Shown: positions 17,492 to 37,829 of the stretch, piece after piece | Numbering within the stretch: the first letter of the stretch is position 1 | How the letters are laid out: each line of letters starts with the position of its first letter | Source: Frankia casuarinae | GTDB lineage: Bacteria; Actinomycetota; Actinomycetes; Frankiales; Frankiaceae | Direction: 5' to 3' | Length of the DNA stretch: 64,000 nt | NCBI RefSeq assembly: GCF_000013345.1 | Contig: NC_007777.1 | Coordinates: forward strand, 3,472,001-3,536,000 | Program-made: the position numbers and the translations under genes | The notes under the pieces: model-generated | What the model was told of the DNA's origin: nothing | The model's database searches: none | The model's input: only the letters and a program-made list of their open reading frames with translations

Positions 17492-17582
17492 CCCCCGATG
17501 CCCGCCGGTCCAGATCTCACCGCGCCGCGGTGGCCTCACCCGGCGGCGTCGGCGAGATTGGGCAGCCCCGACACCGCTGGAG
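17489..17582. repeat. left copy of the direct repeat bracketing the BREX operon (dead toxin/antitoxin junction)
   Basis: Bases 17507-17577 (71 bp) are identical to 36012-36082, and similarity extends to about 90 bp with small gaps. On the minus strand the copy still encodes the antitoxin C-terminus (AVSGLPNLADAAG, stop) and the toxin start (RPPRRGEIWT). An extra base then shifts the toxin frame, and nothing of the toxin or antitoxin body remains on either side. Confidence 0.92.
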
Positions 17583-17707: not shown

Positions 17708-20700
17708 TTGGACGATGAGCGCTGGACGCAGTGCACACCGTCCGAGTACGCCTGGGAGCGTGCGGCCCTGTCCTATCTCAAGGCGCAGCTACCAACCGGG
17801 GATCCCTACCGGGCTTGGGCGAACGCCGAGTTTCTCGGGTCCGACGGTTCCGTCAACGAGGTCGACCTGCTTCTCGTCCTGCCGGCGGGCATCGTCGTGC
17901 TGGAGATCAAGTCCTGGTCCGGTGTCCTCGTGGGAGACGCGGGCACCTGGCGTCAGAGCCACCGCGCCCCGGTCGACAACCCCGTCATCGGAGCAAACCG
18001 CAAGGCCCGCAAACTGAAGTCGCTGCTGGTTTCCCGGCCGGCGATGCGGGGCCGACGGGTGCCATGGGTGGAGGGCGCGGTATTCCTGAGCGACGCGCGG
18101 CTGGAGATCCGCCTTGTCCCAGAAGGCCGGGCGCACGTCTTCGGACGGCATGACCAGACCCAGCTGCCGAGTTTCCTGGACTTCGCGCGGCAGCCCGGCC
18201 GGGTGGACGGCGAGCTCAGTAATGCCCTGGCCCGGGCCGTCGACCAGGCCGGAATCCGCCCGTCCCAGCGGGCGCGGACCGTCGGCAGCCTTCGCCTGGA
18301 GCTGCCCGCCTTCCAGGAGGGCGTCGGCTGGCAGGACTTCCTCGCCCGCAACCAGCGGTTTCCCGACGACCGGCCGCGGCGGGTGCGGATCTATCTGGCC
18401 AGTGGTGTGGAGTCGGTGCACCAGCGTGACCAGCTCGTGCGGGCCGCCGAGCGGGAGTACCTCGCACTACGCGGCATCGACTATCCGGGGATCGCGGCGC
18501 CGATCGACTTCGTCGAGCACGATCTGGGCCCCGCGCTCGTCTTTCCCCACGATCCCGAGCTGATCCGGCTGGACCATTTCCTCCAAGAACACGAACGCGA
18601 GCTGTCCTTCGACGATCGGTTGGCACTGCTGCGCGTCCTTGCCGAGACCATGGCCTACGCCCACCGGCGGGTGCTGACGCACCGGGGCCTGAGCCCGCGA
18701 TGCGTCTGGGTTCGGCGCCGGTCCGACCGCTTCGCCCTCCAGATCACGGACTGGCAGACGGCCTCCCGCGGCTCCGAATCGACGTCAGGGATACCGAGCA
18801 CCACCGGCCCGGCCACGTCGACGGGGGGCTACGTCGAACTGGCCGACGACGCCGCCGCGGCCTACTTCGCACCCGAGTGGAGCTGGGGCACGGCGAAGGG
18901 GGTCACCCTCGACGTCTTCGGGGTCGGCGCCATCGCCTACCGGATCTTCACCGGGAAACCCCCCGCGGCCTCATCCGGGGAGCTCAGCCGACGTCTGTCC
19001 GAACACAACCGACTGTTACTCGCCGAACAGGTTGATGCCGTCTCCGAGGAGCTCAACAAGCTCGTCGCCCGGGCGACCGAGGCCGACCCGGAGCAACGCA
19101 CCCGGGACATGGCCGCGTTCCTGCTCGATCTCGACCTGGTTCGGGAACGGCTGGCCGCCATCGCGGAGGAGGCACCGGTTGTCGTTGATCCCCTGGAGGC
19201 CGAGGCCGGCGCCGAACTGGAGGGCGGATTTTCGGTCCTCGGCCGGCTGGGCCGCGGCTCGACGGCGCTCGCTCTGCTCGTCGAGCGGGACGGCGGGCGC
19301 GCGGTTCTCAAGGTGTCGTTGGACCGAGACAGGGATCCGCGGTTGGTCGCCGAGGCCGAGACGCTGCGCACCCTCAGCGAGCATCCCGGTGTCGTGCAGC
19401 TGCTGAGCGACGGCGTGATCGACGTCGGCCCACGCCGGGCCCTGTTGATCACTTCAGCCGGGGAACGCACCCTCGCCCAGGAGCTACGCGAGCGAGGCCG
19501 ACTACAACCGGAATGGCTCCAGGGGTGGGGCGACGACCTGCTGGAGATCGTCCAGCATCTACAGCGGGCCGGGCTGGCGCATCGCGACATCAAGCCGGAC
19601 AACCTCGGCGTCGCCGAACGTGGCGGCAGGGGCAAGAAGCGGCAGCTCGTCCTGTTCGACTTCTCCCTGGCGAAGGAGCCGTTGGAGGCCATCGAAGCCG
19701 GCACCCGCCCGTACCTCGACCCGTTCCTCGGCCGCGGCGAGCGCCGCCGATGGGATCAGGCTGCCGAGCGATACGCCGCGGCGGTGACGCTCTACGAGAT
19801 GGCGACCGCACGCCGGCCCGAGTACGGAACCCATGGCGGGCATCCGAGTTTCGTCGACGCCGACGTGGCGATCGAACCCGAGCTGTTCGACCGGTCGTAC
19901 GCGACCGGTCTCACCGAGTTCTTCCGCCGAGCGCTGCACCGGGACGTCAGACAGCGCTTCGACACCGCGGAGGACATGCGCCGCGCCTGGAACGCGATCC
20001 TGGCCGAACCGGCCAGCGTGGTCCCGCAGCCGCCCTCCGCGCGCATCAGCCGGGACACGCCCATCGGCGCCGCCGGTCTGTCCCGCCCGGTGCTGTCGGT
20101 GTTCGAACGGCTGTCGATCGATACGGTGGGCGGCGCGCTCGACCTGTCGCCCGCCCAGGTCGTCTGGCTGCCCGGCATCGGTACGAAGACCCGCCAGCAG
20201 TTGCGTGCGGACCTGGACCGGCTGGCCGGCCAGGTCACCTCCTCCCCGGCCGAGCGGCCCACCGAGCCGACGCTCCTCGACCGCGTCGCCGCCGGGCTCA
20301 TCCCCCGCGCGACCGACCGGGCCGTCGCCGAAGCCCTGCTCGGCCTCGGCGAGCAGGGCGGCAACGCATGGACGAGCGTGCGCGACGCGGCCAAGGCCCT
20401 TGACCGCGAGCAACGTACCGTCCGGCAGGCGGTAGCCAGGTTCGAGCGGCATTGGCTGGCCCTCGACGGGATGCGAGAGCTGCGGGACACCATCGTCAAG
20501 GTCGTCGAGTCGGTCGGTGGGGTCGCCTCCGCCCGGCACTGCGCGGCGGCCCTGCTCGACTTTCAGGGCAGCACGGTGGAGGAACCGCTGCGCTCCCGGC
20601 TCGCCGAGGCCGTCGTACGCGCGGCGATCGATGCCGAGCTGGCCGACGACTCCCCCCGCGACGACACCACTCACGACACCACCCACGACGCCTCCGGCGG

Positions 20701-21928
20701 TTCCGAGATGGGTGGCGATCCACGGCTGGTGTACAGCCGAGAGCCCAACGGCATCCTCGTCGCCGCCGGCCCCGCGCGCGCCGGGGACGGGCCCTCCACC
20801 GCCGATCGGTTGGACTGGGCCTCCCGGCTCGGCGGCGCGGCCGACGACCTCGCCGGCGCGGACCCGCTGCCGGCTCCGGCTCGGGTCATCGAGACGTTGC
20901 GCGCCGTCCGCGCCCCCGGCGACACCGACCCCTCCCTGATCTTCCCCGAACGGCTCCTCGACGTCGCCATGATCGCCTCCGAGAACGCCGCGGTGACGCC
21001 GCGCCTGGAGGTCTACCCGCGAGGCCTCGACGCGGGACGGGCGCTGCGGCTGGCCGCCGGGGCGCTGTACGGCCGCACGGAGCTGACCCCCGAGCAGGTG
21101 GCCGAGCGGATCATCGTGCGGTTCCCGCACGCGGGCGCGCTGCCCGGCCGTCCCGAGCTGGACGCCCTGCTCGACGCGGCCGGGGTGCCGCTGTGCTGGG
21201 ACGACGAGAAAAAGCGGTACGTGACCCGCCGCATCGAGGTGACCGGGCTCACCTCCCTGGTCACCTCCCGTGGAACCAGGCCGCGCTGGAGCACCGGCGC
21301 GGGCGCCGCCTGGACGACAATGGGATGGCGCCGGGTCTCCGACGAGGTGCTGGCCGCGGATGACCGGCTCACCCGTTCGCTGGTGGACGGCGGCTGGCTG
21401 GTGCTGTCGGTGCCGCCGCGGCGACTCGCCCGGGCCGAACGCTGCCTGGCCGCGCAGGATGTCACCGTTGTCGACGCGGAACAAGCCCTGCTCGCGGGGA
21501 TGCGGGAGTTCTGCGCCCAGCACCGGGTGCAGTGGTCGATCGTCCTGGCGGCCGACGCCGCCGACCGATCGTCGCGCGACTGGGCCAACCTCTCAAGGGT
21601 CGCGCAGGCCGGGCTCGCCGGTGTGCGGGCCTCGATCGAGGCCGCGGGGCCGGCGGTGCTGATCACGAATGCGGGGGTGGTCGCCCGGTACGATCCGGCG
21701 CTGGTGGTACTGGATGAGCTGCGCGCATCGGTGCGGATGACGACCGAGACATCACCGGTGCGTACGGTGTGGCTGCTCGTACCCTGGGCCGACGTGGACA
21801 AACAACCGTTGTTGGATGGTGGCGCTCCCGTGCCCCAGTTCGGCAACCAGGGCCTGGCGCTGTCCGAGGAGTGGATTGTCCGGCACGAGTCTCGGCTCGC
21901 CGACGGCGCTGAGGGAGGAGCAGCGTGA
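17708..21928 (+). CDS. pglW: PglW, BREX type 2 protein kinase
   Basis: 1406 residues. The N-terminus (ERWTQCTPSEYAWERAAL) matches the PglW family, followed by a NERD-like nuclease-related region (EFLGSDGSVNEVDLLL, EIKSW, residues about 38-72). Two kinase-fold regions follow. The first has HRGLSPRCVW where HRD is expected and looks like a pseudokinase. The second has HRDIKPDNLG (catalytic Asp near residue 627) and LFDFSLA and should be active. A helix-hairpin-helix-like VVWLPGIGTKTRQQL follows near residue 820. In the Streptomyces Pgl system PglW is a Ser/Thr kinase required for phage resistance. The start is TTG 17708 with GGGGGAGG before it. First gene of the operon. Confidence 0.93.
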   Translation: MDDERWTQCTPSEYAWERAALSYLKAQLPTGDPYRAWANAEFLGSDGSVNEVDLLLVLPAGIVVLEIKSWSGVLVGDAGTWRQSHRAPVDNPVIGANRKARKLKSLLVSRPAMRGRRVPWVEGAVFLSDARLEIRLVPEGRAHVFGRHDQTQLPSFLDFARQPGRVDGELSNALARAVDQAGIRPSQRARTVGSLRLELPAFQEGVGWQDFLARNQRFPDDRPRRVRIYLASGVESVHQRDQLVRAAEREYLALRGIDYPGIAAPIDFVEHDLGPALVFPHDPELIRLDHFLQEHERELSFDDRLALLRVLAETMAYAHRRVLTHRGLSPRCVWVRRRSDRFALQITDWQTASRGSESTSGIPSTTGPATSTGGYVELADDAAAAYFAPEWSWGTAKGVTLDVFGVGAIAYRIFTGKPPAASSGELSRRLSEHNRLLLAEQVDAVSEELNKLVARATEADPEQRTRDMAAFLLDLDLVRERLAAIAEEAPVVVDPLEAEAGAELEGGFSVLGRLGRGSTALALLVERDGGRAVLKVSLDRDRDPRLVAEAETLRTLSEHPGVVQLLSDGVIDVGPRRALLITSAGERTLAQELRERGRLQPEWLQGWGDDLLEIVQHLQRAGLAHRDIKPDNLGVAERGGRGKKRQLVLFDFSLAKEPLEAIEAGTRPYLDPFLGRGERRRWDQAAERYAAAVTLYEMATARRPEYGTHGGHPSFVDADVAIEPELFDRSYATGLTEFFRRALHRDVRQRFDTAEDMRRAWNAILAEPASVVPQPPSARISRDTPIGAAGLSRPVLSVFERLSIDTVGGALDLSPAQVVWLPGIGTKTRQQLRADLDRLAGQVTSSPAERPTEPTLLDRVAAGLIPRATDRAVAEALLGLGEQGGNAWTSVRDAAKALDREQRTVRQAVARFERHWLALDGMRELRDTIVKVVESVGGVASARHCAAALLDFQGSTVEEPLRSRLAEAVVRAAIDAELADDSPRDDTTHDTTHDASGGSEMGGDPRLVYSREPNGILVAAGPARAGDGPSTADRLDWASRLGGAADDLAGADPLPAPARVIETLRAVRAPGDTDPSLIFPERLLDVAMIASENAAVTPRLEVYPRGLDAGRALRLAAGALYGRTELTPEQVAERIIVRFPHAGALPGRPELDALLDAAGVPLCWDDEKKRYVTRRIEVTGLTSLVTSRGTRPRWSTGAGAAWTTMGWRRVSDEVLAADDRLTRSLVDGGWLVLSVPPRRLARAERCLAAQDVTVVDAEQALLAGMREFCAQHRVQWSIVLAADAADRSSRDWANLSRVAQAGLAGVRASIEAAGPAVLITNAGVVARYDPALVVLDELRASVRMTTETSPVRTVWLLVPWADVDKQPLLDGGAPVPQFGNQGLALSEEWIVRHESRLADGAEGGAA

Positions 21929-24900
21929 TCGAGGCGAGACGCCTGTTGGCCGATCTCCAGCGGCAGGTCCGCGGCCTGGAGGCGGACCTGCGCGCGCGGG
22001 CCCGGTCGGACCGGGACGTCGACGATCGGCTGCACAAGCGGTACCAGGAGGCGAAGACCGGCTGTCGCACCGGCGTCGGCTACGAGACGTGGCTCGACCA
22101 GCAGCTCACCCAGGTGGCGGTCGGTTGGGTGCTGGCCTGCGTGTTCACCCGATTCTGCGAGGACAACACGCTGCTGGGACGTCCGATGCTGGCCGGCCCG
22201 GTCCGCCCCGAGCAGGAGGCCGACGAGACAGGCGAGGCCAGGGAACGGGTCGACGGGGTGGCCGAGGCCCGGGAATGGCAGACTTTCTACTTCCAGGCGG
22301 AGGACCACAAGAATGACTCCGACCTGGACTACCTGCGGGCGGCGGTCGCCCGGCTGGAGGCGTACGACGCAACCCGGGATCTGGTCAACCGGCACAACCC
22401 GCTGCACCTGGTGGACATCTCACCGGACGCGGCGACCGGCCTGCTGGAGTTCTGGCGGCGGATCGACCCGGAAACCGGCGCTCTCGTCCACGACTTCTCC
22501 GATCCGGCGTCCTCCACCCGCTTCCTCGGCGATCTGTACCAGGATCTTTCCGAACAGGCGCGTAAGGACTACGCGCTGCTCCAGACCCCCGAGTTCGTCG
22601 AGGAGTTCATCCTCGGCCGGACCCTTGCCCCGGCGATCGACGAGTTCGGCCTCGCCGAGGTTCGGATGATCGACCCGGCCTGCGGCTCCGGGCACTTCCT
22701 GCTCGGCGCCTTCGACCTCCTGCTCGACCGGTGGCAGAAGCAGGAACATGGGATTGACGTCAAGGTCCACGTGGAGCGCGTACTCGGCCAGGTCCACGGT
22801 GTCGACATCAACCCGTTCGCGGCGGCGATCGCCCGGTTCCGCCTCGTCATCGCCGCACTGGCCGTCTGCGGGATCACCCGGCTCGTCGACGCCCCCGTCT
22901 GGCGCATCCGCATCGCCATCGGTGACTCCCTGCTGTGGGGCACCGAGGATCAGCAGGACGAACTCGACGGCGTCGCCACCCACGCCCTGACGGGTTCCAC
23001 CGGTGAGGGTGAGTTCACCTACGAGTACGAGGACGCTCGCGAGCTGAAGGAGATCCTGGAAGCCCGCTACCACGCGGTTGTCGGCAACCCGCCGTACATC
23101 ACGGTCAAGGACCGGGCCCCCAGCAACGCCTATCGGGTGCGCTGGAGCGCATGCCATCGCCAGTACGCGCTCAGCGTGCCGTTCGCGCAGCGGTTCTTCC
23201 GACTCGCGGTCAACGGCGGCTTCACCGGCCAGATCACCGCGAACTCCTTCATGAAGCGCGAGTTCGGCAAGAAACTCATCGAGGAGTTCTTCCCGAGCGT
23301 CGACCTCACCCTGCTCGTCGACACCAGCGGCGCCTACATCCCCGGCCACGGAACCCCGACCGTCCTCATCTTCGGCCGCCACCGCCGCCCCTCCCTGACC
23401 ACGGTGCAGACTGTCCTTGGGATCCGGGGCGAGCCCAGCGCACCGGCCGACCCGGCCAAAGGCCTCGTGTGGACACGAATAGTAGAGAACTTCGCGAATG
23501 CTGACCACACGGATGCGTATATCAGCACCCTCGGAATCAAGCGGATAGATCTTGCGAGGCATCCCTGGTCACTCGCTGGCGGTGGAGCGGCTCAGTTGCA
23601 AGCTCAGATAGACACAACCAGCGCGCGTCTACATAATCTCGGAGTTGACATCGGACGCACCGTCCAGCTCGGCGAAGATGACGCTTGGATACTTGCCCAT
23701 AGTTCTCCGGCGGTGACCAGGTTTCAGGACAACATGGTCCCCCATGTTTTCGGCGAGCTAGTACGTGACTACACGATCGAACAACCTCCCATTGCAATTA
23801 ATCCGTATGCCGACATAACCAAAGGAATCCCCCTTTTAAAAGATCAGGAAGTTGTACAAAATCTCCTCTGGCCAAACCGAACAATCCTGTCTGCTCGCAC
23901 AATATTCGGTAGAAGTCTTGCCGAAAACGATCGACCATGGTATGCATATTTAGAAATATATGCAAACCGACTGCACACCCCGCTGGCGATCGCCTTTCCG
24001 TTCGTCTCGACCCACAACCACTTCACACTCGACCGAGGCGGCAAGATATTCAATCGTACCGCAACCGTTCTCAAGCTGCCCGAGGGAGCCACGGAGGAGA
24101 AACATCTGCGGCTGGTCGGGGTGCTGAACTCGTCGGCGGCGTGCTTCTGGCTCAAGCAGGTGAGCCACGACAAAGGAATCCGTGGCCAGGGAGGAGGCTT
24201 CACCAGTGACGACTGGGAACACTTCTACGAGTTCACCGGGACCAAGCTGAAGGAGTTTCCGCTGCCGGACGGGGCGCCACTGGTGTTGGCGACGCGGCTG
24301 GACGGGTTGGCTCAGGAGCTCCAGCGGGTCGCGCCGGCCGCGGTGGCCAGGGACGCTGTTCCGACCCGGGAGGCACTCGTGCACGCGCGGGCGGAGTGGG
24401 AGCGGATCCGGGCGGAGATGATCTCGGCGCAGGAGGAGCTGGACTGGGAGGTCTACGGTCTCTACGGGCTGCTCGGCGACGACGCGGACGGGTTGATCGG
24501 TTCGAGTGTGACGAAGCCGCCGCTGGCGCTTGGCGAACGGGCGTTCGAGATCGTGCTGGCGCGGCAGCACGATGCCGGCGAGACCGAGACGGAATGGTTC
24601 ACCCGGCACCGCTCGACGCCGATCATCCAGCTGCCCGCGCACTGGCCGCAGGACTACCGGGCCCTCGTCGAGCGGCGGCTGGCGAAGATCGACGATGATC
24701 CGTACCTTCACCTCATCGAGCGGCCGGAATGCAAGCGGCGCTGGGCGAGCCGGCCGTGGGCGGAGATGGAGGCCGAGGCGTTGCGCGCCTGGCTGCTCGA
24801 CCGGCTGGAGGCCCGCGAACTGTGGCACCGACCGGAACCGACCCCGCGCACCGTCGCCCAGCTCGCCGACGAGCTGCGGACCGACGCCGAGTTCACCGCC

Positions 24901-25644
24901 GTCGCCAGGCTCTACGCCCGCGACACCGCTCTTGGTGACGTGGTCGCCGATCTCGTGCGCGACGAGCATGTACCGTTCCTCGCCGCCTGGCGGTACACCG
25001 ACATGGGGCTGCGGGTCCGGGCGCAGTGGGAACGCACCTGGGATCTCCAGCGGGAGCAGGATGCCGAGGACGAGCGGATCCGGGCCGAGGAGGAGCGGCG
25101 TAAGGAGTCCGACGAGCCGCTGCCACCGGCCCCACCGCGTAAAATCATCGACATCAAGGTGCCGCCGAAGTACAAACAGACCGACTTCCGCGAGACGTCC
25201 TACTGGCGCAGCCGCGGGAAGCTGGACGTGCCCAAGGAGCGGTTCATCTCGTACCCGGATGCTTCCCGGGACGGGACCCTGCTGCTGGGCTGGGCCGGCT
25301 GGGATCATCTCCAGCAGGCGCAGGCGCTGGCCACCTATATCGCCGATCGGCGCGAGGTCGACGCCTGGGACGCCGAGAAAACCAAGCCGTTGCTCGCCGG
25401 GCTGCTGGAACTCCTGCCGTGGGTCGCGCAATGGCATTCGGAACTGGACCCGGAGTTCGGTATTCGGCCCGCGGACGCCTACACCGGCTTCCTCGACGAG
25501 CAGGTGCGCCAGCTCGGGCTGACCCGTGACGATCTCACCGGCTGGCTCCCCGCGGCCAGGAAGACGAGAACCACGGTGAAGAAGCCGGCGAAGAAGCCGG
25601 CGAATAAGCCCGCCACGACTCCGGCGAAGGCGGCCCGGTCATGA
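21925..25644 (+). CDS. pglX: PglX, BREX DNA adenine methyltransferase
   Basis: 1239 residues. SAM-binding motif [12 protein letters not shown] near residue 251 and the catalytic NPPYI near residue 387 define an adenine-specific N6 methyltransferase of the PglX type. In BREX it marks host DNA at an asymmetric site and is needed for resistance. It starts at a GTGA overlap with pglW. The stretch at about 23470-24080 (residues 515-720), the expected target-recognition region, is clearly AT-richer than its surroundings (25 G/C in the 60 bases from 23821). The C-terminus ends in a Lys/Pro/Ala-rich tail ([19 protein letters not shown]). Confidence 0.95.
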
Positions 25645-28600
25645 CCCTGATCTCGGAACTCCTCGACATCCCCGAGGCCGTGTACCCGGGGGACTTCGTC
25701 CTCGACCTGTCCCGCGGCGTGACCCAGATCGATCGCACCCTGCGCGAGTATGTCGTCACCCCCGAGCTGGCCATCCGGTTCGGGGAGGCGCTGGGTCTGA
25801 TCAAGAGCGCGCTCACCGACGGCAGTAGCAAGGCCGCCTACCTCGACGGCTCGTTCGGGTCCGGCAAGAGCCACTTCATGGCTGTGCTCGGCGCGCTGGC
25901 GCGGAACCACCCCGGGGCCCGGGCGATCGGCGAGCTCGCCCCTGTCATCACCGCATTCGACGGTGACGTCATCGGCAAGCAGTTCCTCGTCGTGCCGTAT
26001 CACCTCGTCGGCAAGACGTCGCTGGAGGAGGCGGTCCTCGGCGGCTACCTGGCGCACGTCCGCGCGCTGCACCCGGACGCGCCGCTGCCCGCCGTCCTCA
26101 TCGACAAGCCGCTGCTCGACACCGCGGTGGCGTTGCGCGGCCAACTCGGCGACCAGGCGTTCTTCGGCCTGCTCGGCGGCGGCGACCGGAGCTCGGCTGC
26201 CGACCCGCGCTGGGGCACGTTGAACCACGGGGCCTGGGACGCCGACCGGTTCGAGCAGGCACTGACCGCCGCTCCCGCCGCGCAGGAGCGCCGCGACCTG
26301 GTCGGCACCCTGGAGAAGGCGCTGGTCGGGTTCGCCGAGCTCGCCCGGGGCGCCGCCACCGGCTACGTCAACATCGACGACGGCCTGGCCGCGATCAGCC
26401 AGCATGCCGCCGGCCTCGGCTACGACGGGCTGATCCTCTTCCTCGACGAGCTCATCCTGTGGTTCGCCACCAGGATGGCCGATCACGCCTGGGTGGCGAA
26501 CGAGGCTCCCAAGGTCGCCAAGCTCGTCGAGGCGGCCAACGCCGACCGACCGGTGCCGATCATCAGTTTCGTCGCCCGCCAGCGGGACCTGCGCGAGCTC
26601 GTCGGCACCAACCTGCCCGGCACCGAACATCTTGCCTTCGCCGACAGTCTCAAGTGGTGGGAGGGTCGGTTCGGCTCGATCAAGCTCTCCGACAACAACC
26701 TGCCGCTCATCATGTCGAAGCGGGTCCTGCGGCCGCGCAGCGATGCCACCCGGGCACAGATCGACACCTCGTTCGCCGCGATGGACCGGGTCCGAGCGGA
26801 CATCCGGGCCGCGCTGATGACCGCCCACGCCGACCGGGCCGCGTTCCGGCTGACCTATCCGTTCAGCCCGGCATTCGTCGAGACGCTCGTCGCGCTGTCC
26901 GGGTTCCTCCAGCGGGAGCGGACCGCGCTGCGGGTCATGCAGCAGCTACTCGTTGACCAGCGGGACACCCTGCAGCTCGGCCAGCTCGTCCCCGTCTCCG
27001 ACCTGTTCGACGCGCTCATCACGGATGCGTCGCCGATCAGCGGCGAGCTCGGCGGGCTGTGGCGCAACGCGCAGAAGGTCTACGGCGAGATCCGTCGGCT
27101 CATCCTGGAAAGCCACGGGCTGACCGAGGAAACCGTCACCGGGGTGGCCCCGAAACACGCCGTGCACATGGACGACCGGATCGCCAAGACCCTGGTGCTC
27201 GCCGCCCTGCTCCCCGAGGTCCCGTCGATGCGGGATCTCACCGCCCGCCGGATCGTGGCCCTCAACCACGGGTACATCCGGTCGATGGTGCCGGGTCAGG
27301 AGACGGGCGCGGTCACCCAGGTCGTCCGCAAATGGGCGGCCCGGCTCGGCGCGGTGCAGGTCAGCGGGGACGACGCAAGCCCGCTCCTGTCGGTGCGGCT
27401 CGAAGGCGTCGACATCGAGGGCATTCTGGAGAACGCCAAGGGGGCCGACTCGCCCGGCGACCGCCGGCTGACCGTGCGAACGCTGCTGTTCGACGCGCTC
27501 GGCGCCACGAAACCGGAGGGTATCGACCGCGCGACGATCGTCACCGCCACCTGGCGCGGCACCAAACGCAACGTCGAGCTCATCTACGGCTATCTTCGCG
27601 ACCCCGGTGACGTGGGCGACAGCATGTTCACGCCCACCCACAACGGCTGGCGGCTCGCCCTCGACGTCCCCTTCGATCCGGACGACCACTCCCCGGCCGA
27701 GGCCCTCGACCGGGTCTCGCGGCTGCGGGACGCGCTCCCAGCGCGCACCCTCTGCTGGGTCCCGCGGCACTTCACCGCACACACCCAATGGAGCCTGGGC
27801 CGCTACCTGCGGCTGGAATACGCCGTCGGGCCGAGCTTCGACCAACTCGCCGGGCACCTGTCCGACAATGACCGGGCTATCGCCCACCAGCAGTTGACCG
27901 CGCAGCTCGACCAGCTGCGCAGCCAACTGACGAACGCGCTGCTGCAAGCCTATGGCCTCGTCACCCCGGACGAGACGGTCGTCGATCCCGCGCACGGCGG
28001 GATCGACATGTTCGTCAGCCTCGAACCGGGATTCACGCCCCGGGTCCCCGCCGGTGCCGCCCTGCGCCCCGCCTTCGAAAACCTGCTCGACCAGGCACTG
28101 AGCTGGGAGTTCCCGGCCCACCCCCACTTCGACGGCGAGGTGCGCCCGGGTGACCTGGCAAAAGTGCACGCCCAGGTGCGCCGGGCCATCGAACATCCCG
28201 AGCACCGGATCATGGTCGAATCCAGCGAGCGGCCCGTCATGCGGAAGGTGGCCAACCCGCTGGGGCTCGGCGAGCAGAGCGACCAGTACTTCGTCCTCGG
28301 CCACCACTGGGAACGGCACCTCGGCCGAAAGATCATCGAGGCCGAGGCGGCGGGCCGGCCGGTCACGGTCGGAGACCTGCGTGCCTGGCTGGACGAGCCG
28401 AAGCGGATGGGTCTGCCCCAGGAGATCGCGGACCTTGTTGTGCTGGTCTTCGCCGAGCAGACCAACCGCGGCATCCTCCACGGCCGGCCGCTCGACGTGA
28501 GCATCCCGCGCCCGCTGCCCGCGGACGCGCGCGTTGTCGCCGAGCCGCTACCCGATCGGGACACCTGGGAGGAGGCCCGCGGCCGGGCGCACGCCCTCTT

Positions 28601-29324
28601 CCTGATCACTGACATCACCGAACTGTGTACCGCGCGCAACGTCGCCTTGCTGGCCACTCGGGTACGATCAGCCGTCGCGGACCGGCTTCCGAAGGTTCGC
28701 GCGCTGCACGCGGCCCTCATCCGCCGAGGACCGACCGTGCTCCGGGACGGCACCGACCCGGCGACGGAACGAGTCCGGATCGCCCAGGGCGCGCTGCGTC
28801 TCTGTGCGGACCTGGCGACCATCACCGACAATCTGGCCCTGGTCGAGCGGCTCGCCGCCTTCGACCTCCCCGCGGTCCCGCTGCACACCGGTCGGAGCCT
28901 GACCACCGCCGCCGATCTCGACGCGGCCATCCGGGAGGTGGACTGGAACATCTTCACCACCGTGGCCGACTGGGGACCCGAGCATCCGCGGGGCGCGGAG
29001 GCAGCCGCGTTGGTGACCGAGCTCGCCGCGGTCTGGGCGGCCAACGAGTACGTCCAGCACCTCCAGCCGGCGCTCACCAAGGCGGACAGGAAGGCTCGCG
29101 GGTTGCTGCTGGAATGGAGCCGACGGGTCTCCCGCCCAGCGAGCAGAACCGGCACCATCAACCCGCCGGGCGTGGCCACACCGGGCGTGGCGACACCGGG
29201 CGGCGTGGCAACCAGCGGCGCCCGCGAGGTCGATCAGGACTCGGTTGCCGAGTTCACGTCCACGCTCGCGGCGCTCACCGCCCAGGGCTGGCGGATCAAA
29301 GTCACCTGGCAGGCCGTGCGGTGA
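25641..29324 (+). CDS. pglY: PglY, BREX P-loop ATPase (BrxC/PglY family)
   Basis: 1227 residues. The Walker A motif GSFGSGKS is near residue 73, and LILFLDELILWF is a likely Walker B segment. This is the large ATPase shared by BREX systems (BrxC in type 1, PglY in type 2), cytoplasmic and essential for phage resistance in studied systems. It begins at an ATGA overlap with pglX and ends at a GTGA overlap with pglZ, as expected for proteins made in fixed ratio. The region before the C-terminus contains a short GVATPGVATPGGVAT repeat. Confidence 0.94.
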   Translation: MTLISELLDIPEAVYPGDFVLDLSRGVTQIDRTLREYVVTPELAIRFGEALGLIKSALTDGSSKAAYLDGSFGSGKSHFMAVLGALARNHPGARAIGELAPVITAFDGDVIGKQFLVVPYHLVGKTSLEEAVLGGYLAHVRALHPDAPLPAVLIDKPLLDTAVALRGQLGDQAFFGLLGGGDRSSAADPRWGTLNHGAWDADRFEQALTAAPAAQERRDLVGTLEKALVGFAELARGAATGYVNIDDGLAAISQHAAGLGYDGLILFLDELILWFATRMADHAWVANEAPKVAKLVEAANADRPVPIISFVARQRDLRELVGTNLPGTEHLAFADSLKWWEGRFGSIKLSDNNLPLIMSKRVLRPRSDATRAQIDTSFAAMDRVRADIRAALMTAHADRAAFRLTYPFSPAFVETLVALSGFLQRERTALRVMQQLLVDQRDTLQLGQLVPVSDLFDALITDASPISGELGGLWRNAQKVYGEIRRLILESHGLTEETVTGVAPKHAVHMDDRIAKTLVLAALLPEVPSMRDLTARRIVALNHGYIRSMVPGQETGAVTQVVRKWAARLGAVQVSGDDASPLLSVRLEGVDIEGILENAKGADSPGDRRLTVRTLLFDALGATKPEGIDRATIVTATWRGTKRNVELIYGYLRDPGDVGDSMFTPTHNGWRLALDVPFDPDDHSPAEALDRVSRLRDALPARTLCWVPRHFTAHTQWSLGRYLRLEYAVGPSFDQLAGHLSDNDRAIAHQQLTAQLDQLRSQLTNALLQAYGLVTPDETVVDPAHGGIDMFVSLEPGFTPRVPAGAALRPAFENLLDQALSWEFPAHPHFDGEVRPGDLAKVHAQVRRAIEHPEHRIMVESSERPVMRKVANPLGLGEQSDQYFVLGHHWERHLGRKIIEAEAAGRPVTVGDLRAWLDEPKRMGLPQEIADLVVLVFAEQTNRGILHGRPLDVSIPRPLPADARVVAEPLPDRDTWEEARGRAHALFLITDITELCTARNVALLATRVRSAVADRLPKVRALHAALIRRGPTVLRDGTDPATERVRIAQGALRLCADLATITDNLALVERLAAFDLPAVPLHTGRSLTTAADLDAAIREVDWNIFTTVADWGPEHPRGAEAAALVTELAAVWAANEYVQHLQPALTKADRKARGLLLEWSRRVSRPASRTGTINPPGVATPGVATPGGVATSGAREVDQDSVAEFTSTLAALTAQGWRIKVTWQAVR

Positions 29325-32002
29325 CCGTGGTAGCCGCGCCGGTCCTGGTCCGGGCGAAGGTGGCCGAGGTGCTCCGCCGAGACGAGAAGGCGCGCGTCGT
29401 CGCCCTGGCCGCGGCGCCGGTGTGGCCGCACGACGAACGCCTGGAACTGCCCGGTGGCCGCGGCGTGGTGGTCCGGCCATGCGTGTCCACCCTCGCGATC
29501 CGCGACGAGCTGCAACAGGTCGACGATCTCCCTGCCGGGGAGGTACTCGTCCTGCTCACCGAGTACGAAACCGGCGAGCTGGGGACGAGCATCACTGCCC
29601 GGCTCGCCGGTCAGAAGATCCTGCCGCTTGATCGCTGGCAGCAGCTCACCAGCCTGTTTCGGGCACACGGCATCGATCCGGCCCTCGTCGACGAGCAGTG
29701 GGCGGTGAACGCGCTGCTCGCCACCCCCCCGCCGGACGGGTATCCCGCCGCGCGCAACGGCTACCTGGACCGGGCCACGGCATTGGCCACACTCGCCGAG
29801 ACCCAGGCCGGGCTCACCCCGCTCGACCTCGACCTCGCGGGCCTGCTGCGATGGAGCCTCGACGCCGAACACCTCGCGCGGTGGCGCGCGTTGGACCCGG
29901 CGGTGCGTACCGGCATGAGCGGATGGCTTGCCGGCCGCGGCGGTCGAGGCGACGTGGTGGCCGCCGTTCTCCGGTGCTTCGCCGGGCCCTACGGTCCCGA
30001 CGCCGTCGCCGTCGGACTGGTGCTCGCGGCTCTCAGCCATCCCGAGGTCCGGGACACGGCGCAGGTGCCGCGCACCATGCTGGAGACGCGGGTGGTCGAC
30101 GGCGCTCTCGCCCCGTCCGTCGCCGCGGAATGGGGACGCGCGGCTGAAGGGCTGGTTCAGCGGCTGCTCGGCCAGGAGGGGCGGGCCGTGGCTGGCGGAA
30201 TCCTGCGACGCGCCGAGGAGATCCTGGCCGGGCAGGGCGCCGCCGAGCTGTCTTATCCCAGCGCCGTCCTCGAATCCGGTCTCACCCAGCGCCTGCGGCA
30301 CATTGGCTCGCAGGTCGCCGCGGTGCTGCGCAAGCGGCGGCTACGCGCCGAGGATCTGGGGCCGGTCGAACATGAGGTGGCGCGGCTGAACGCGCACGCG
30401 CTGGCCGCCGACCATGCCGAGCGGGTGAGTCGCGCCGAGATGGCCGTTCGGCTGCTGCGCTGGCTGGCCCAGGAGGCCGCGTCCGCCCGACCACCGGCGC
30501 CGAGCCTTGCCGAGGCGTCCCGTCGGCAGCAGGACCAGGACGCATGGGTCGACCTGGCCCGGGCGCGGGTGTGGGAGGGCGACGTCGATCAGGTGGTCGC
30601 CGCAGCCTACCGGACACTGTGCACGACGGTCGACGCCCGTCGCCGCGAACACGAACGGCGGTTCGCGAATCTGCTCGCCGACCACACCCGCACCGGGTCG
30701 ACGCTGGGCGAGCTGCTGCCGGTGGAGGACGTGCTCGACCAGATCGTGGTGCCGCTGGCCGGCCGATGCCGGCTGCTGCTGCTCGTACTGGACGGGATGT
30801 CCACCGGGGTGGCGCGGGAGCTGCTCGCCGACCTGTCGACCCGGGGCTGGGTAGAACACACCCTCACCCCGGCCCGACCGGTGCTGGCCACCCTGCCGTC
30901 GGTCACCCGGACCTCGCGGACGAGCCTGCTGTGCGGGCGGCTCGTGGACGGCACGCAAAGCCAGGAGAAGGCATCCTTCGCCGAGCGGGGCTGGCCGCTG
31001 TTCCACAAGGGCGACCTCGCCGCGGCCGGTGCCGGCGAGGTGCTTGAGCCGCGCGTCGCGGACGCGATCAGGGGCGACGCCCCCGTGGTCGGCATCGTTG
31101 TGAACACCGTCGACGACACCCTGGACAAGGGTGGGCGCACCCCCTGGACCGCCAGCTCGGTCGATCGGCTGCTCGACCTGCTGGCCACCGCGGACGGATC
31201 GGGCCGGGCCGTCCTGCTGGTCAGCGACCACGGCCACGTCCATGAACGCGGCTCCCGGCTGGTTTCCGACGACAGCGGCGGCGCGCGGTGGCGATCATCG
31301 GCGCGCCCGCCCGACGAGGACGAGGTCACGCTCATCGGCCCGCGGGTGCTGCTGGGCGGCGGCCGGATCGTCGCCGCCTGGAACGAACGGCTACGTTATA
31401 CGGCCCTGCGCAACGGCTACCACGGCGGCGCCAGTGCCCAGGAGATCGTGATCCCGTTGGCGCTGCTGCGTCGGGTCGACCTCGACCTGCCCGGTTGGAC
31501 TCCCTTGCACCATGCCGCGCCTCCCTGGTGGGTGGAGCCGATGGCCACGGGCACCACGCCGGCCACAGGCACCACGCCGGCCACGGGCACCACGCCGGCC
31601 ACGGGCACCACGCCGGCCACGGGCACCACGCCGGCCGGACATGCCGGCTCGGCCGCACAGCCGGACCTCGGTCTGTTCGACGAGTCCGAGGTGACGCCGC
31701 AACCGTGGGTGGATCGCGTGCTCGATACCGAGGTGATGCGGGCTCGGCTCGCCCGGATGCGTCGCGGGGCCATGCCCGCGGACCGGCTCGGGGTGCTCCT
31801 GCGGGCGCTCGACGCCCGTGGCGGCGCCGCCACGCGGGCCACGGTCGCCCGCGCGCTCGACGTGCCGGACGCGCGGATCGCCAGCCACCTCGCCGCGGCG
31901 CAGCGGGTGCTGAACATCGACGGCTACGAGGTGCTGCGGATCGATGGTGACACCGTGCGGCTGAACGCCGCGTTGCTGGCGACGCAGGCCGGTCTGACGT
32001 GA
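29321..32002 (+). CDS. pglZ: PglZ, BREX alkaline-phosphatase-superfamily protein
   Basis: 893 residues. The alkaline phosphatase-like domain shows LLLLVLDGMSTG (near residue 485, metal Asp) and VLLVSDHGHVHERG (near residue 636), the conserved PglZ metal-site motifs. PglZ is the signature protein of BREX systems. The GTG start overlaps the pglY stop. Near the C-terminus five copies of an 18-bp unit (31544-31633) encode ATGTTP repeats, which look like a flexible linker of variable length before the last alpha-helical domain. Confidence 0.95.
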   Translation: MTVVAAPVLVRAKVAEVLRRDEKARVVALAAAPVWPHDERLELPGGRGVVVRPCVSTLAIRDELQQVDDLPAGEVLVLLTEYETGELGTSITARLAGQKILPLDRWQQLTSLFRAHGIDPALVDEQWAVNALLATPPPDGYPAARNGYLDRATALATLAETQAGLTPLDLDLAGLLRWSLDAEHLARWRALDPAVRTGMSGWLAGRGGRGDVVAAVLRCFAGPYGPDAVAVGLVLAALSHPEVRDTAQVPRTMLETRVVDGALAPSVAAEWGRAAEGLVQRLLGQEGRAVAGGILRRAEEILAGQGAAELSYPSAVLESGLTQRLRHIGSQVAAVLRKRRLRAEDLGPVEHEVARLNAHALAADHAERVSRAEMAVRLLRWLAQEAASARPPAPSLAEASRRQQDQDAWVDLARARVWEGDVDQVVAAAYRTLCTTVDARRREHERRFANLLADHTRTGSTLGELLPVEDVLDQIVVPLAGRCRLLLLVLDGMSTGVARELLADLSTRGWVEHTLTPARPVLATLPSVTRTSRTSLLCGRLVDGTQSQEKASFAERGWPLFHKGDLAAAGAGEVLEPRVADAIRGDAPVVGIVVNTVDDTLDKGGRTPWTASSVDRLLDLLATADGSGRAVLLVSDHGHVHERGSRLVSDDSGGARWRSSARPPDEDEVTLIGPRVLLGGGRIVAAWNERLRYTALRNGYHGGASAQEIVIPLALLRRVDLDLPGWTPLHHAAPPWWVEPMATGTTPATGTTPATGTTPATGTTPATGTTPAGHAGSAAQPDLGLFDESEVTPQPWVDRVLDTEVMRARLARMRRGAMPADRLGVLLRALDARGGAATRATVARALDVPDARIASHLAAAQRVLNIDGYEVLRIDGDTVRLNAALLATQAGLT

Positions 32003-33327
32003 CCATCTCCGAACAACGCCGACGGGAGGTGATCGACGCGCTTCGGCGCGGAACCGTGCCGCGGCAGGGCCTGGATGTGCTCGCGGTCGGTCTTGACCGC
32101 TTCACCACGGCGATCGAGGAGGATCTCGACCGGCTCGCCGGCGGACAGGCGACGTTCCGGGCGATCCGCGGCGATTACGGCGCGGGAAAGACGTTCTTCA
32201 CCCGCTGGCTCGCCGAGCGGGCCAAGGCCCGGGGGTTCGCCACCGCCGAGATCGCGATCTCCGAGAACGAGACCCCGCTGCACCGGCTCGAAACGGTCTA
32301 CCGCCGGCTCGCCGAACGGCTCGCGACCGCCGAATTCGCGCCGAGCGCGCTGCGTCCCATCGTCGATTCCTGGTTCTTCGCGCTGGAGGAGGACGTTCTC
32401 GCCGGCGGCGAGGTCGTCGAGAATGAGCTGGCGCGCCGGGTCGACGAGTTGCTGGAACAGCGGCTGGCCGCCGTCGGGCGGGTCGCGCCGTCCTTCTCAG
32501 CCGCCCTACGGGCGTACCGGCGGGCGACCGCGGCCGGCGAAACCGCGGCCGCGGAGGGACTGATCGCTTGGCTGGGCGGGCAACCGCACGTGGCGGCGGC
32601 GGTGAAACGGGCCGGCGGTGTCCGGGGCGACCTCGATCACGACGGAGCGCTCGGCTTCCTGCAGGGGCTGCTCGCGGTGCTCACCGACAGCGGCCATGCC
32701 GGTCTCGTGGTCGTCCTCGACGAGGTCGAGACGCTGCAGCGGGTCCGGGGCGACATGCGTGACAAGGCGCTCAACGCGCTGCGCCAGCTCATCGACGACG
32801 TGGACGCTGGGCGATTCCCCGGGCTGATGCTCGTCATCACCGGCACTCCCGCGTTCTTCGACGGACCGCAGGGAGCGCAACGGCTCGCCCCGCTCGCGCA
32901 GCGGCTCCACGTCGACTTCCTCCCGGATCAAGCTTTCGATAACCCTCGGGCGGTGCAGCTGCGACTGCCCGGGTTCAACCGGGATTCCCTGCTGGAGCTC
33001 GGCGGCCGGATCCGGGAGCTGTACAGCTCCGGCCATGGTGATCCGGAGCGGTTCGCCACGGCAGTGGACGAAGGCTACCTGGCCGAGTTCGCGCAGGCCG
33101 TGGTCGGGCAGTTCGGCGGGCGAGTAGGCGTCGCGCCCCGCATCTTCGTGAAGAAACTCGTCGATGTGCTCGACCGCGTCGACCAGCATCCCGCCTTCGA
33201 TCCCCGGCGTGCGTACGTCCCGCGGCTGTCCGCCACCGAGCTCACCGACACCGAACGTGCGGCGATGCCCAGCCCGCCACAACCGCCCCCGGCGGCATCG
33301 GTCGACGACATCGACCTACCGCTGTGA
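31999..33327 (+). CDS. brxD: BrxD, BREX ATP-binding protein
   Basis: 442 residues, AAA-type ATPase of the DUF2791 kind. Walker A is GDYGAGKT near residue 58 and Walker B is LVVVLDEVE near residue 238. BrxD accompanies the helicase BrxHI in type 2 BREX loci. Its exact role is not established to my knowledge, and helicase loading is a plausible inference from the pairing. It is joined by GTGA overlaps to pglZ upstream and brxHI downstream. Confidence 0.92.
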   Translation: MTISEQRRREVIDALRRGTVPRQGLDVLAVGLDRFTTAIEEDLDRLAGGQATFRAIRGDYGAGKTFFTRWLAERAKARGFATAEIAISENETPLHRLETVYRRLAERLATAEFAPSALRPIVDSWFFALEEDVLAGGEVVENELARRVDELLEQRLAAVGRVAPSFSAALRAYRRATAAGETAAAEGLIAWLGGQPHVAAAVKRAGGVRGDLDHDGALGFLQGLLAVLTDSGHAGLVVVLDEVETLQRVRGDMRDKALNALRQLIDDVDAGRFPGLMLVITGTPAFFDGPQGAQRLAPLAQRLHVDFLPDQAFDNPRAVQLRLPGFNRDSLLELGGRIRELYSSGHGDPERFATAVDEGYLAEFAQAVVGQFGGRVGVAPRIFVKKLVDVLDRVDQHPAFDPRRAYVPRLSATELTDTERAAMPSPPQPPPAASVDDIDLPL

Positions 33328-35585
33328 TCTCCCGGACGTCCGGGGCCTCGGGGGCTTCCGGGGCCCCGGGGGCTTCCGGGGCTTCCGGGGCCTCGGGCTT
33401 CGCCGCCCTCGACCCGGCCGTCCAGTATCACGTCGTCAACAGTCTGCGGTGGCCTGCCCTGCGCCCGTTGCAGGAGGCGGCGATACGTCCGGTCCTCGAC
33501 GGGCATGACGTGCTGCTGCTGGCACCGACCGCCGGTGGGAAAACCGAGGCGGTGGCGCTGCCCCTGCTGTCCCGGATGGCCGGGGAGAAATGGCGCGGGC
33601 TGTCGGTGCTGTATGTGTGTCCGCTGCGGGCGTTGCTGAACAACCTCGAACCGCGGCTGGCCGCGATGTGCGAATGGCTCGGCCGGCGGGCCGCCGTCTG
33701 GCATGGAGATGTCGCCGACTCGGTGCGCGGGCGGCTGGCCGTGGATCCGCCGGATCTTCTGCTGACCACCCCGGAGTCGATCGAGGCGATGCTCGTCTCC
33801 GCGCGCGTCGATCATCGATGGCTCTTCGCCGGCCTGCGGACGGTTGTCGTCGACGAGGTCCACGCCTTCGCCGGTGACGACCGCGGTTGGCATCTGCTGG
33901 GGGTGTTGGCCCGGTTACGCGGGCTCGCCAACCGGGCGGTACAGCGGATTGGTTTGTCCGCAACTGTCGGGAACCCGGACGTACTGCTCGACTGGCTCGC
34001 GGACGGATCCGCCCGGCCGCGCGCGGTCGTCCGGCCGAGTGACGTGACGGCCACCACGGACGTGACGGCCACCACGGACGCGACAGCCACCACGGACGCG
34101 ACAGCCACCACGGACGCGACAGCCACCACGGAGGTCGGGATCGACTACGTGGGCTCCCTGCGCAACGCCGCCCTCGTGGTCGCCCGCCTTCATCAGGGGA
34201 TGAAGAGGCTGGTCTTCTGCGATTCCCGCAGCCAGGTCGAGGAGTTGACGGTTGCGCTGCGTGACCTCGGGGTACGGACGTATGTATCCCACTCGTCCCT
34301 GTCACGGGATGACCGGCGGCAGGCCGAGGCCGCCTTCGCGACATCCACCAACTGCGTCATCGTCGCCACTTCCACCTTGGAGCTGGGGATCGACGTCGGT
34401 GACCTGGACCGCGTCATCCAGATCGGTGCCCCCGCCACGGTGATCTCCTTCCTGCAACGCCTCGGGCGGACCGGGCGGCGCCCCGGGACCCGACGCAACA
34501 CGCTGTTCCTGGCAACGTCGCAGAACTCTCTGTGGCTCGCGGCGGCTATCACGCTGCTGTGGCAACGCGGATACGTCGAGCCGGTCGTCCCGCCCGTGCT
34601 TCCCCGTCACATCGTCGCCCAGCAGATCCTCGGACTGGCCCTGCAGGAAGGCCGCCTCGTCGACCGCGACGTCTGGCAGTGGCTCGGCGGGCTTGCCCGG
34701 ACTCCGGGCGCGGTCGACGTACTGGCGCATCTGGCCCGCTCCGGGTTTGTCGTGCACACCGACGGGCTGGTATCGATCGGCCCGCGGGCGGAGAAGGAAT
34801 ACGGGCGACGCTACTTCCTCGACCTCACGTCAACCTTCGCCGGCGAATCGATGGTGCAGGTCTGGTGGGGACGTAGCCTGCTCGGCCAGCTGCCACCGAT
34901 CGCGCTCGCGGCTCGACCGGAGCACGGACCGCGGGTGGTTCTTCTCGGCGGTCGTGCCTGGAAGGTGAATCATGTCGACTGGCGGAGAAGACGAGTCCAG
35001 GTCGAACCGAGCCGCTACCCAGGCCGGTCCCGGTGGAACGGCGGGGCCCGGGTCATGTCCTATCCGCTCGCCCAGGCTCACCTCGACGTCCTCGCCGGGC
35101 AAACGGCCGGCATCGAGATATCCCGGCGGGCCGCCGACGCGTTGGACAAGCTCCGCGCGCAGCATTCCTTTGTCAGTGTCAGTGTCAGTGACGAGCCGGG
35201 CGAACGCACCTACCTCACCCGCGACCCCGAGAAGCGGCCGATCTGGTGGACATTTGCCGGGTTCGCGGCCAATTCGGCCCTCGCCTCGGGGCTCGGCGAG
35301 CTGGTTGACGCTGACGCGCCGGTCGGCGATCTCAGGCTGCGGCTTCGCCCGCACGTCAACTCCGCCGCGCTACGGACAATGCTCGATGTTCGACGTGACG
35401 ACCTCGTTGACGCTCTTCCGGCCATCGATGTCGAGGCTGCCGATGGGCTCAAGTTCTCCGCGGCGATTCCCCTCGAACTCGCGATCGAGACGCTAGCCGC
35501 ACGCCTCACCGATCCATCCGCCGTCCACGCGACGCTGAAGGCAATCATCCGGGAGGAGACTGCGCCTCCGCCTGGGGGATGGTAG
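33324..35585 (+). CDS. brxHI: BrxHI, BREX Lhr-like DEAD/DEAH helicase
   Basis: 753 residues, superfamily 2 helicase. Walker A is APTAGGKT near residue 68, the motif II box DEVH near residue 176, motif III SATVG, and motif VI QRLGRTGRRPG. It completes the type 2 BREX set. Two low-complexity insertions stand out: GAS/GAP repeats at the N-terminus, and five 18-bp repeats (34041-34130, TATTD-like) placed between the two RecA-like lobes. The start is GTG 33324 in a GTGA overlap with brxD. Confidence 0.93.
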   Translation: MISRTSGASGASGAPGASGASGASGFAALDPAVQYHVVNSLRWPALRPLQEAAIRPVLDGHDVLLLAPTAGGKTEAVALPLLSRMAGEKWRGLSVLYVCPLRALLNNLEPRLAAMCEWLGRRAAVWHGDVADSVRGRLAVDPPDLLLTTPESIEAMLVSARVDHRWLFAGLRTVVVDEVHAFAGDDRGWHLLGVLARLRGLANRAVQRIGLSATVGNPDVLLDWLADGSARPRAVVRPSDVTATTDVTATTDATATTDATATTDATATTEVGIDYVGSLRNAALVVARLHQGMKRLVFCDSRSQVEELTVALRDLGVRTYVSHSSLSRDDRRQAEAAFATSTNCVIVATSTLELGIDVGDLDRVIQIGAPATVISFLQRLGRTGRRPGTRRNTLFLATSQNSLWLAAAITLLWQRGYVEPVVPPVLPRHIVAQQILGLALQEGRLVDRDVWQWLGGLARTPGAVDVLAHLARSGFVVHTDGLVSIGPRAEKEYGRRYFLDLTSTFAGESMVQVWWGRSLLGQLPPIALAARPEHGPRVVLLGGRAWKVNHVDWRRRRVQVEPSRYPGRSRWNGGARVMSYPLAQAHLDVLAGQTAGIEISRRAADALDKLRAQHSFVSVSVSDEPGERTYLTRDPEKRPIWWTFAGFAANSALASGLGELVDADAPVGDLRLRLRPHVNSAALRTMLDVRRDDLVDALPAIDVEAADGLKFSAAIPLELAIETLAARLTDPSAVHATLKAIIREETAPPPGGW
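34041..34130 (+). repeat. 18-bp coding tandem repeat (5 copies) in brxHI
   Basis: Five units of GACGTGACGGCCACCACG or its close variant with GCG ACA, all in frame. Confidence 0.95.
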
Positions 35586-35732: not shown

Positions 35733-36044
35733 TCAACGTTCGGGCGTGGCCAAGATCTTGAACAACATGGTGTTGGCGGTGGTGAGCGTCTGGGCGTCGA
35801 CCCGGCGCAGGCATTCACCCAGGGCGGCCTTGGCCACGAACGTGACCAGGCCCATCACGGCCCACTGCCCCTCCCCCAGGTCGACGCAGAACCCCTCGTC
35901 GGTGGCGTGCTCCACGACCAGGGCGACCAGCACGGTCGGCTCGTCGGCGATCTCGTTGTAGACCGTGGAGCTGAGGATCAGCACCGCCTGCGGCGCCGGC
36001 CCGATGCCCGCGGTCCAGATCTCACCGCGCCGCGGTGGCCTCAC
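35733..36044 (-). CDS. MazF/PemK-like toxin
   Basis: 103 residues. The N-terminal RPPRRGEIW is the typical MazF/PemK first strand, followed by an SH3-like beta-barrel pattern with hydrophobic strands (AVLILSS, LVALVV). Family members are mostly mRNA-cleaving endoribonucleases. The start is GTG 36044 in a GTGA overlap with the upstream antitoxin gene, so translation is coupled. The gene lies convergent to the BREX operon, just inside its right border repeat. Catalytic residues cannot be assigned with certainty, so inactivity is possible. Confidence 0.72.
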   Translation of the reverse strand: MRPPRRGEIWTAGIGPAPQAVLILSSTVYNEIADEPTVLVALVVEHATDEGFCVDLGEGQWAVMGLVTFVAKAALGECLRRVDAQTLTTANTMLFKILATPER

Positions 36045-36088
36045 CCGGCGGCGTCGGCGAGATTGGGCAGCCCCGACACCGCGAGAGC
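36000..36088. repeat. right copy of the direct repeat bracketing the BREX operon
   Basis: Same orientation as 17489-17582, with 71 identical bases (36012-36082). It spans the overlapping end of the antitoxin gene and start of the toxin gene. The only difference inside the toxin start is one base fewer than in the left copy, which keeps the toxin frame open. Confidence 0.92.
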
Positions 36089-36301
36089 CCGCTGGTTGGC
36101 CTCCCCGAAGGCGAGGGCCGCGCCGGCCACCGCCGGGTCGGCCCGCACCCAGGCCCCGTGCGCGGCGCAGCGCCGACGCATGTCCTCGGCGTCAAGCACG
36201 CCCTCGACCCAGGCGTTCATCGAGGTGTGCTCGGCCTCGGCGTACCGCTTGACCGCCTCGTAGGCCTCGTCCGAGAGCCGGAGCGTGATCGTGCGCGACA
36301 T
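36041..36301 (-). CDS. ribbon-helix-helix antitoxin
   Basis: 86 residues from ATG 36301 (89 from ATG 36310). The N-terminus SRTITLRLSDEAYEAVKRYA followed by AEHTSMNAWV is a ribbon-helix-helix DNA-binding pattern as in Arc/MetJ-type antitoxins, and the C-terminal part would bind the toxin. It lies upstream of the MazF-like toxin with a 4-base overlap, the usual antitoxin-first order. Autorepression of the pair is expected from the family. No strong ribosome binding site is seen at either start, so the mRNA could be leaderless. Confidence 0.72.
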   Translation of the reverse strand: MSRTITLRLSDEAYEAVKRYAEAEHTSMNAWVEGVLDAEDMRRRCAAHGAWVRADPAVAGAALAFGEANQRALAVSGLPNLADAAG

Positions 36302-37737: not shown

Positions 37738-37753
37738 TGACCTCCGGAGGGGA

Positions 37754-37822: not shown

Positions 37823-37829
37823 CAACGGC

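Follow-up and report, generated by a model that had tools for sequence, protein, structure and literature searches.

Do six long open reading frames that follow one another on a single strand of a Frankia chromosome make up a whole, working phage-defence system, and would the methyltransferase among them mark the DNA of its host at all times, as in type 1 systems, or stay silent until infection, as proposed for the Pgl system of Streptomyces? The frames occupy positions 17708-35585, on the plus strand, of the 64,000-nucleotide stretch of DNA analysed here (the window), back to back and with no break between them over 17.9 kb. We conclude with high confidence, from gene content, motifs and neighbourhood, that they most probably represent a complete and probably working type 2 bacteriophage exclusion (BREX) operon of the phage growth limitation (Pgl) family, acquired horizontally on an island of about 19 kb. 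The type 2 class reportedly goes back to the scheme of Goldfarb et al., and the operon is an ordinary, well-preserved representative of this known system. With other type 2 loci it shares the core trio as well as PglW, BrxD and BrxHI, arranged W-X-Y-Z-D-HI, whereas it differs from them by 4-base overlaps at all five gene junctions and by framing repeats derived from a toxin-antitoxin pair.

Gene content and integrity of the operon

For each of the six proteins the top PADLOC profile carries the expected name and covers the sequence nearly end to end (Table 1). The core trio of PglX, BrxC/PglY and PglZ was recovered by PADLOC and the type-specific PglW, BrxD and BrxHI by both PADLOC and Pfam, and the gene order PglW-PglX-PglY-PglZ-BrxD-BrxHI on one strand is the canonical one for type 2 BREX. 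A preliminary description of this DNA, made from the letters alone, had listed all six genes in canonical order, with which PADLOC, Pfam and the gene coordinates agree. In PglW, Pfam finds a NERD domain and two kinase regions, of which the second contains HRDIKPDN and DFS and the first reads HRG where the second has HRD, i.e., the pattern of a pseudokinase combined with an active kinase. The C-terminal half of PglW has no Pfam match; a published domain model of type 2 BREX counts a C-terminal triple winged helix-turn-helix and an inactive STAND domain of PglW among the traits of the type (PMC12839542). Pfam identifies an Eco57I-type methylase and DUF7008 in PglX, and in PglY a sub-threshold DUF6079 match and nothing more. 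Among solved structures, PglX is matched over short methylase segments only, including those of BrxX (9ewz), and PglZ has no match at E 0.1.

None of the six frames contains an internal stop, and GC at third codon positions is 0.82-0.91 across all six genes. We found the motifs HRDIKPDN, NERD ExK, NPPY, two Walker A motifs, D491, SDHGH and GYHGG of PglZ, and the helicase boxes. In 20 contiguous six-gene operons of other bacteria the catalytic letters are near invariant (NPPY 20/20, DHGH of PglZ 20/20, HRD 19/20), while the remaining motif letters vary; the recurrent 19/20 in PglW and BrxHI is probably due to two extracted comparison proteins that were fragments, one PglW of 303 and one BrxHI of 14 amino acids. 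No insertion sequence (IS) element was found inside the operon, the nearest one being of the IS200/IS605 type at 37737-39448. The frame of pglW could open at ATG 17498, but TTG 17708, which follows a G-rich stretch, aligns with the ATG of Candidatus (Ca.) Frankia californiensis and of two Actinopolymorpha and is thereby supported as the probable start. The preliminary description thus stands in its start of pglW, in the intactness of the key motifs (kinase HRD, methylase NPPYI, P-loops, PglZ metal motifs, helicase boxes) and in its statement that no frameshift or IS interrupts the genes. Both pglZ and brxHI carry minisatellites, whose copy changes would keep the frame because the units measure 18 bp; such arrays were found in none of the four nearest relatives, Ca. 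F. californiensis having one 18-bp array of 2.4 copies in pglZ (L166:16148-16191). They could possibly serve as strain markers or as length-variable linkers.

The sequence also bears out the earlier statement that all five junctions are GTGA or ATGA overlaps, which read, in order, GTGA, ATGA, GTGA, GTGA and GTGA. For comparison, 98 related loci were surveyed, in two sets of 80 and 18 that may overlap, the 80 being the best 80 of 537, with L120 and L121 excluded as copies of L166 and L168. Scoring a 4-base overlap wherever an in-frame start exists at -4, whatever the true start, and including non-adjacent pairs, we counted a possible overlap at W/X in 10/56, at X/Y in 3/79, at Y/Z in 59/91, at Z/D in 38/70 and at D/HI in 41/68 cases. 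All six genes stood in the order W-X-Y-Z-D-HI in 42 of the 98 loci, the others being partly cut by locus ends, and where the six were contiguous (20 loci) none had five overlaps and two, both from Actinopolymorpha, had four. The full set of overlaps is therefore unusually tight, yet it is a difference of degree and not of mechanism. Overlaps at Y/Z, Z/D and D/HI are common among type 2 relatives, and the one at X/Y is rare. As a separate observation, X and Y were non-adjacent in 39 of the 79 related loci scored for this pair, often lying several kb apart. That the genes form "one translational unit" and "should be functional", as the preliminary description put it, are inferences.

Counting genes from the AlaDH/PNT gene at 8489 puts pglY and pglZ at Francci3_2954 and Francci3_2955. 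The published transcriptome of strain CcI3 lists Francci3_2946 as alanine dehydrogenase/PNT-like, 2947 as NAD/NADP transhydrogenase, 2954 as PglY and 2955 as PglZ (PMC3188489), and the host strain is almost certainly Frankia sp. CcI3, which fixes nitrogen and lives in root nodules. That report of 2011 thus named two of the six BREX genes, pglY and pglZ, and recorded their transcription in CcI3 culture, with similar values of reads per kilobase per million (RPKM) in all three samples, which its authors took as suggesting an operon; in five-day compared with three-day ammonium cultures PglY was up 1.57-fold and PglZ 1.47-fold (PMC3188489). Our literature search returned no further paper on Francci3_2954, and of the papers it gave for Frankia together with BREX not one had either of these words in its title or abstract.

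Table 1. Features of the BREX type 2 operon and its surroundings, in window positions.
Feature	Position	Strand	Characteristics
pheA (prephenate dehydratase)	16484..17425	+	Chromosomal left flank; Pfam PDT E 1.6e-60; orthologues in 11/12 other Frankia genomes
72-bp perfect direct repeat, left copy	17506..17577		Upstream of pglW; decayed fragment of the hicB/mazF border; extends to 84 bp, starting at 17494, if one extra base is allowed
pglW	17708..21928	+	TTG start; NERD nuclease-like domain, pseudokinase, Ser/Thr kinase; PADLOC PglW 1665 bits; Pfam NERD, Pkinase, PK_Tyr_Ser-Thr
pglX	21925..25644	+	Eco57I/MmeI-like adenine methyltransferase with DUF7008 (Pfam); PADLOC PglX 1748 bits; DPACGSG and NPPY
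pglY	25641..29324	+	BrxC-like P-loop ATPase; PADLOC BrxC-PglY 1549 bits; Walker A/B conserved
pglZ	29321..32002	+	PglZ domain with metal-site motifs; PADLOC PglZ 981 bits; Pfam PglZ
Minisatellite in pglZ	31543..31636	+	In-frame 18-bp units, 5.2 copies
brxD	31999..33327	+	ORC/Cdc6-like AAA+ ATPase; PADLOC BrxD 682 bits; Pfam BrxC_BrxD 476 bits
brxHI	33324..35585	+	Superfamily 2 (SF2) helicase; PADLOC BrxHI 1007 bits; Pfam DEAD and Helicase_C
Second array in brxHI	33339-33391		9/18-bp units, in frame
Minisatellite in brxHI	34041..34132	+	In-frame 18-bp units, 5.1 copies
MazF/PemK-like toxin gene	35733..36044	-	Pfam PemK_toxin E 1.1e-4, 22.8 bits, just below the cut-off of 23.1
72-bp direct repeat, right copy	36011..36082		Spans the antitoxin 3' end and the toxin 5' end
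HicB/ribbon-helix-helix-like antitoxin gene	36041..36433	-	Pfam HicB 22.0 bits, cut-off 21; true start probably near 36304
Pirin-like gene	36529..37413	+	Chromosomal right flank; Pfam Pirin

The island, its repeats and its relatives

The island is flanked by pheA on one side and a pirin gene on the other, with 19 kb between the two; its borders, the repeats that frame the operon and a toxin-antitoxin pair are additions to the preliminary description. An orthologue of pheA exists in 11 of 12 other Frankia genomes, and in these 11 the gene preceding it is conserved as well. None of these 11 loci has a pglW match within about 1.5 kb beyond pheA, and in two of them (L026, L031) the pirin gene follows pheA directly, which represents the empty site. 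Among the island's called genes we found neither an integrase nor a transposase. Just past the pirin gene, the IS200/IS605-type element consists of overlapping TnpA (Y1) and TnpB (Cas12f-like) genes. The window opens, at 1-1919, inside a gene for a GmrSD-type restriction-like protein of 772 amino acids, the first 400 bases or so of which lie outside it (L246:3601-5919). In the part that the window covers, Pfam recognises GmrSD_C, a DNA-binding domain like that of MGMT, a short tail resembling ADP-ribosylglycohydrolase and, below threshold, GmrSD_N. The protein may be a type IV enzyme, encoded 16 kb away from BREX.

Downstream of brxHI, on the opposite strand, putative antitoxin and toxin genes overlap by 4 bases. 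The antitoxin is present in 20 of 393 genomes of the class, the strain's own included, and a toxin partner stands beside it in 22/22 loci, again including the window's own; the partners are 69-91% identical in Frankiaceae and 55% in one genome outside. Two adjacent, overlapping genes conserved together are what a type II toxin-antitoxin pair would consist of, though the Pfam scores of the window's two genes are marginal. No hicB/mazF match was found in the 98 related BREX loci, many of which include little flank, which indicates that BREX operons do not regularly come with such a pair.

The 72-bp direct repeats lie 18.5 kb apart and frame the operon. Each copy matches the other at E about 1e-36, no further comparable copy exists in the genome, and 456 random pairs of same-size stretches taken from the window had no word longer than 16 bases in common. 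The left copy is most simply a recent duplicate, because it agrees with the right copy in every base over 72 bp, whereas its identity with the nearest full-length orthologues of the pair, which belong to genus g2, is 85-87%. An origin of the repeats as IS or integrase sites was rejected: with no integrase or transposase called in the island and a right copy that codes for the pair, duplication of a fragment is the simpler explanation. Likewise rejected was a repeat-framed unit common to relatives, since in Ca. F. californiensis and two Actinopolymorpha, for which both flanks were available, these have words of at most 11-14 bases in common, as against 72 here; nothing like the repeat precedes pglW in Ca. 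F. californiensis. Recombination between the two copies would be expected to delete BREX and the toxin and to leave the antitoxin. One might go further and regard the operon as a removable cassette, in which repeats copied from the toxin-antitoxin pair let it loop out by recombination. With the crossover at the antitoxin/toxin border, the circle would take along the toxin and BREX, and the antitoxin would stay on the chromosome. We consider this unlikely; if it were true, cells could shed a defence that is costly to them and still be safe from the toxin of the accompanying pair. Among the papers listed by our literature search, with titles and the starts of abstracts covered, none addresses such a repeat-framed BREX/toxin-antitoxin arrangement by its title.

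Among the best 80 of 537 PglY matches, the closest by best-segment identity were those of Ca. F. californiensis (76%), Actinopolymorpha rutila (67%), A. pittospori (64%) and Pseudofrankia asymbiotica (63%). A FastTree phylogeny of 24 PglY sequences, read from the match start and some of them with unknown residues, groups the window with Ca. F. californiensis, P. asymbiotica and the two Actinopolymorpha (support 1.0). The six-gene operons of the two Actinopolymorpha are collinear with the one studied here, and pglW aligns over residues 1 to 1406. hicB/mazF, pheA and pirin, present around the window's operon, had no match in any of these four loci in the DNA examined there. A clear PglY match exists in 6 of 12 other Frankia species, all of them more distant (38-51% identity); the BrxD of this other Frankia BREX is 62-71% identical, and four of its PglY sequences in the tree fall in another clade. 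The position of the window's clade apart from other Frankia sequences indicates that two BREX 2 lineages exist in the family. In Ca. F. californiensis (L166, a locus that opens inside pglW), the pglW and pglX matches each extend over more than one frame, 1.5 kb lie between these two genes (4473-5993) and a 49-nt direct repeat occurs at 4498 and 5637, so that in the nearest relative the operon is possibly broken or its sequence misassembled.

Mode of action of PglX and alternative readings

By analogy with the characterised family members, PglW would sense infection and signal through its kinase, holding its NERD nuclease-like domain in reserve, and PglX would act as a sequence-recognising N6-adenine methyltransferase. 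PglY/BrxC and PglZ would form the core that restrains PglX and halts phage DNA replication, with PglZ perhaps nicking DNA, and BrxD would load or power the BrxHI helicase on target DNA. PglZ of type 1 can nick DNA, as summarised in PMC12839542. In S. coelicolor, PglX is reported to be toxic without PglZ, and the PglW kinase and the Walker A motif of PglY to be needed (PMC4365076). The 4-base overlaps could allow ribosomes to move from gene to gene and keep subunit ratios near constant, which would matter because of this toxicity.

For the mode of PglX itself we lean slightly towards the one in which it marks host DNA all the time. Alternatively, with the same genes, PglZ might keep PglX silent in uninfected cells, since methylated DNA would be cut by this host; methylation would then be confined to infection, and host DNA would bear no PglX motif. 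This second mode is less probable in our view but a serious contender, as the S. coelicolor data and their authors' model speak for it: neither the host DNA nor the phage progeny is reported to have shown N6-methyladenine, and the authors propose a PglX that stays silent until infection and tie the lack of host methylation to the host's methyl-cutting enzymes (PMC4365076). A study of CcI3 likewise counted five type IV enzymes, those of the Mrr type reaching the 95th percentile of expression (PMC6769113). However, a comparative study of 2026 makes the case for type 2 working in the manner of type 1 and points out that methylation of phage in Pgl was never shown (PMC12839542), and a Mrr_cat domain need not act on the product of PglX. 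We therefore cannot agree with the preliminary description that a lack of PglX methylation would refute its reading, since the Pgl model from Streptomyces itself predicts a PglX that is silent. A missing motif would fit an intact Pgl-like system, because the PglX of S. coelicolor is proposed to be silent and the Mrr nucleases of CcI3 are reported to be strongly expressed.

Genomes with a close PglY do retain Mrr. With type 2 represented by PglY matches of at most E 1e-100, so that weaker or different BREX counted as negative, we found Mrr_cat in 27 of 44 such genomes as against 126 of 349 others of the class (Fisher p 0.0017, ancestry and genome size ignored), and within the family in 10/13 as against 14/22 (p 0.48). 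If host methylation were dangerous in hosts with Mrr, avoidance would be expected; none is seen, which argues against strong avoidance and offers no choice between the two modes.

S. coelicolor A3(2) has PglW, PglX, PglY and PglZ in common with the window. Its pglX contains a G tract that gives phase variation (PMC4365076), whereas the window has no G run of at least 7 in 17.4-36.6 kb. The only homopolymer of that length is a C7 at 29724, in pglZ; no switching G tract was found in pglX, and phase variation as in S. coelicolor was rejected for this operon.

Several points weigh against a complete, probably working operon as concluded above. The arrays in pglZ and brxHI have no counterpart in the four nearest relatives, phage, methylation or protein data for the operon were not found in the literature searched, and one Mrr gene is detected in the genome with the Mrr_cat model, as against the five type IV enzymes counted in PMC6769113. 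The same minisatellites, an IS element 2 kb downstream and the broken toxin-antitoxin fragment beside pglW would also suit a degenerating, non-functional copy retained on a mobile island; but 17.9 kb without a stop or frameshift, intact catalytic residues, the third-position GC common to all six genes and the reported transcription of two of them (PMC3188489) make such decay very improbable. That PglX is a type IIG restriction-modification enzyme with the other genes as accessories, to which the 1109 bits of the PADLOC REase_MTase_IIG model might point, was rejected as having next to no likelihood, given the higher score of the PglX model, the lack of a nuclease domain in PglX by Pfam and the five further BREX genes in canonical order.

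This probably working operon offers a clean construct for asking whether the PglX of type 2 systems methylates the host's DNA, in the way of type 1, or is silent until infection, because it comprises six overlapping genes in 17.9 kb and methyl-cutting enzymes are reported to be strongly expressed in its host. What is worth keeping from the locus is its repeat-framed island, a second lineage of BREX 2 in Frankia and the point that function would not be disproved by the absence of a methylation motif. On a small scale, the repeat-framed island illustrates concretely how a defence system may arrive in a genome together with a toxin-antitoxin pair, and how it might leave again.
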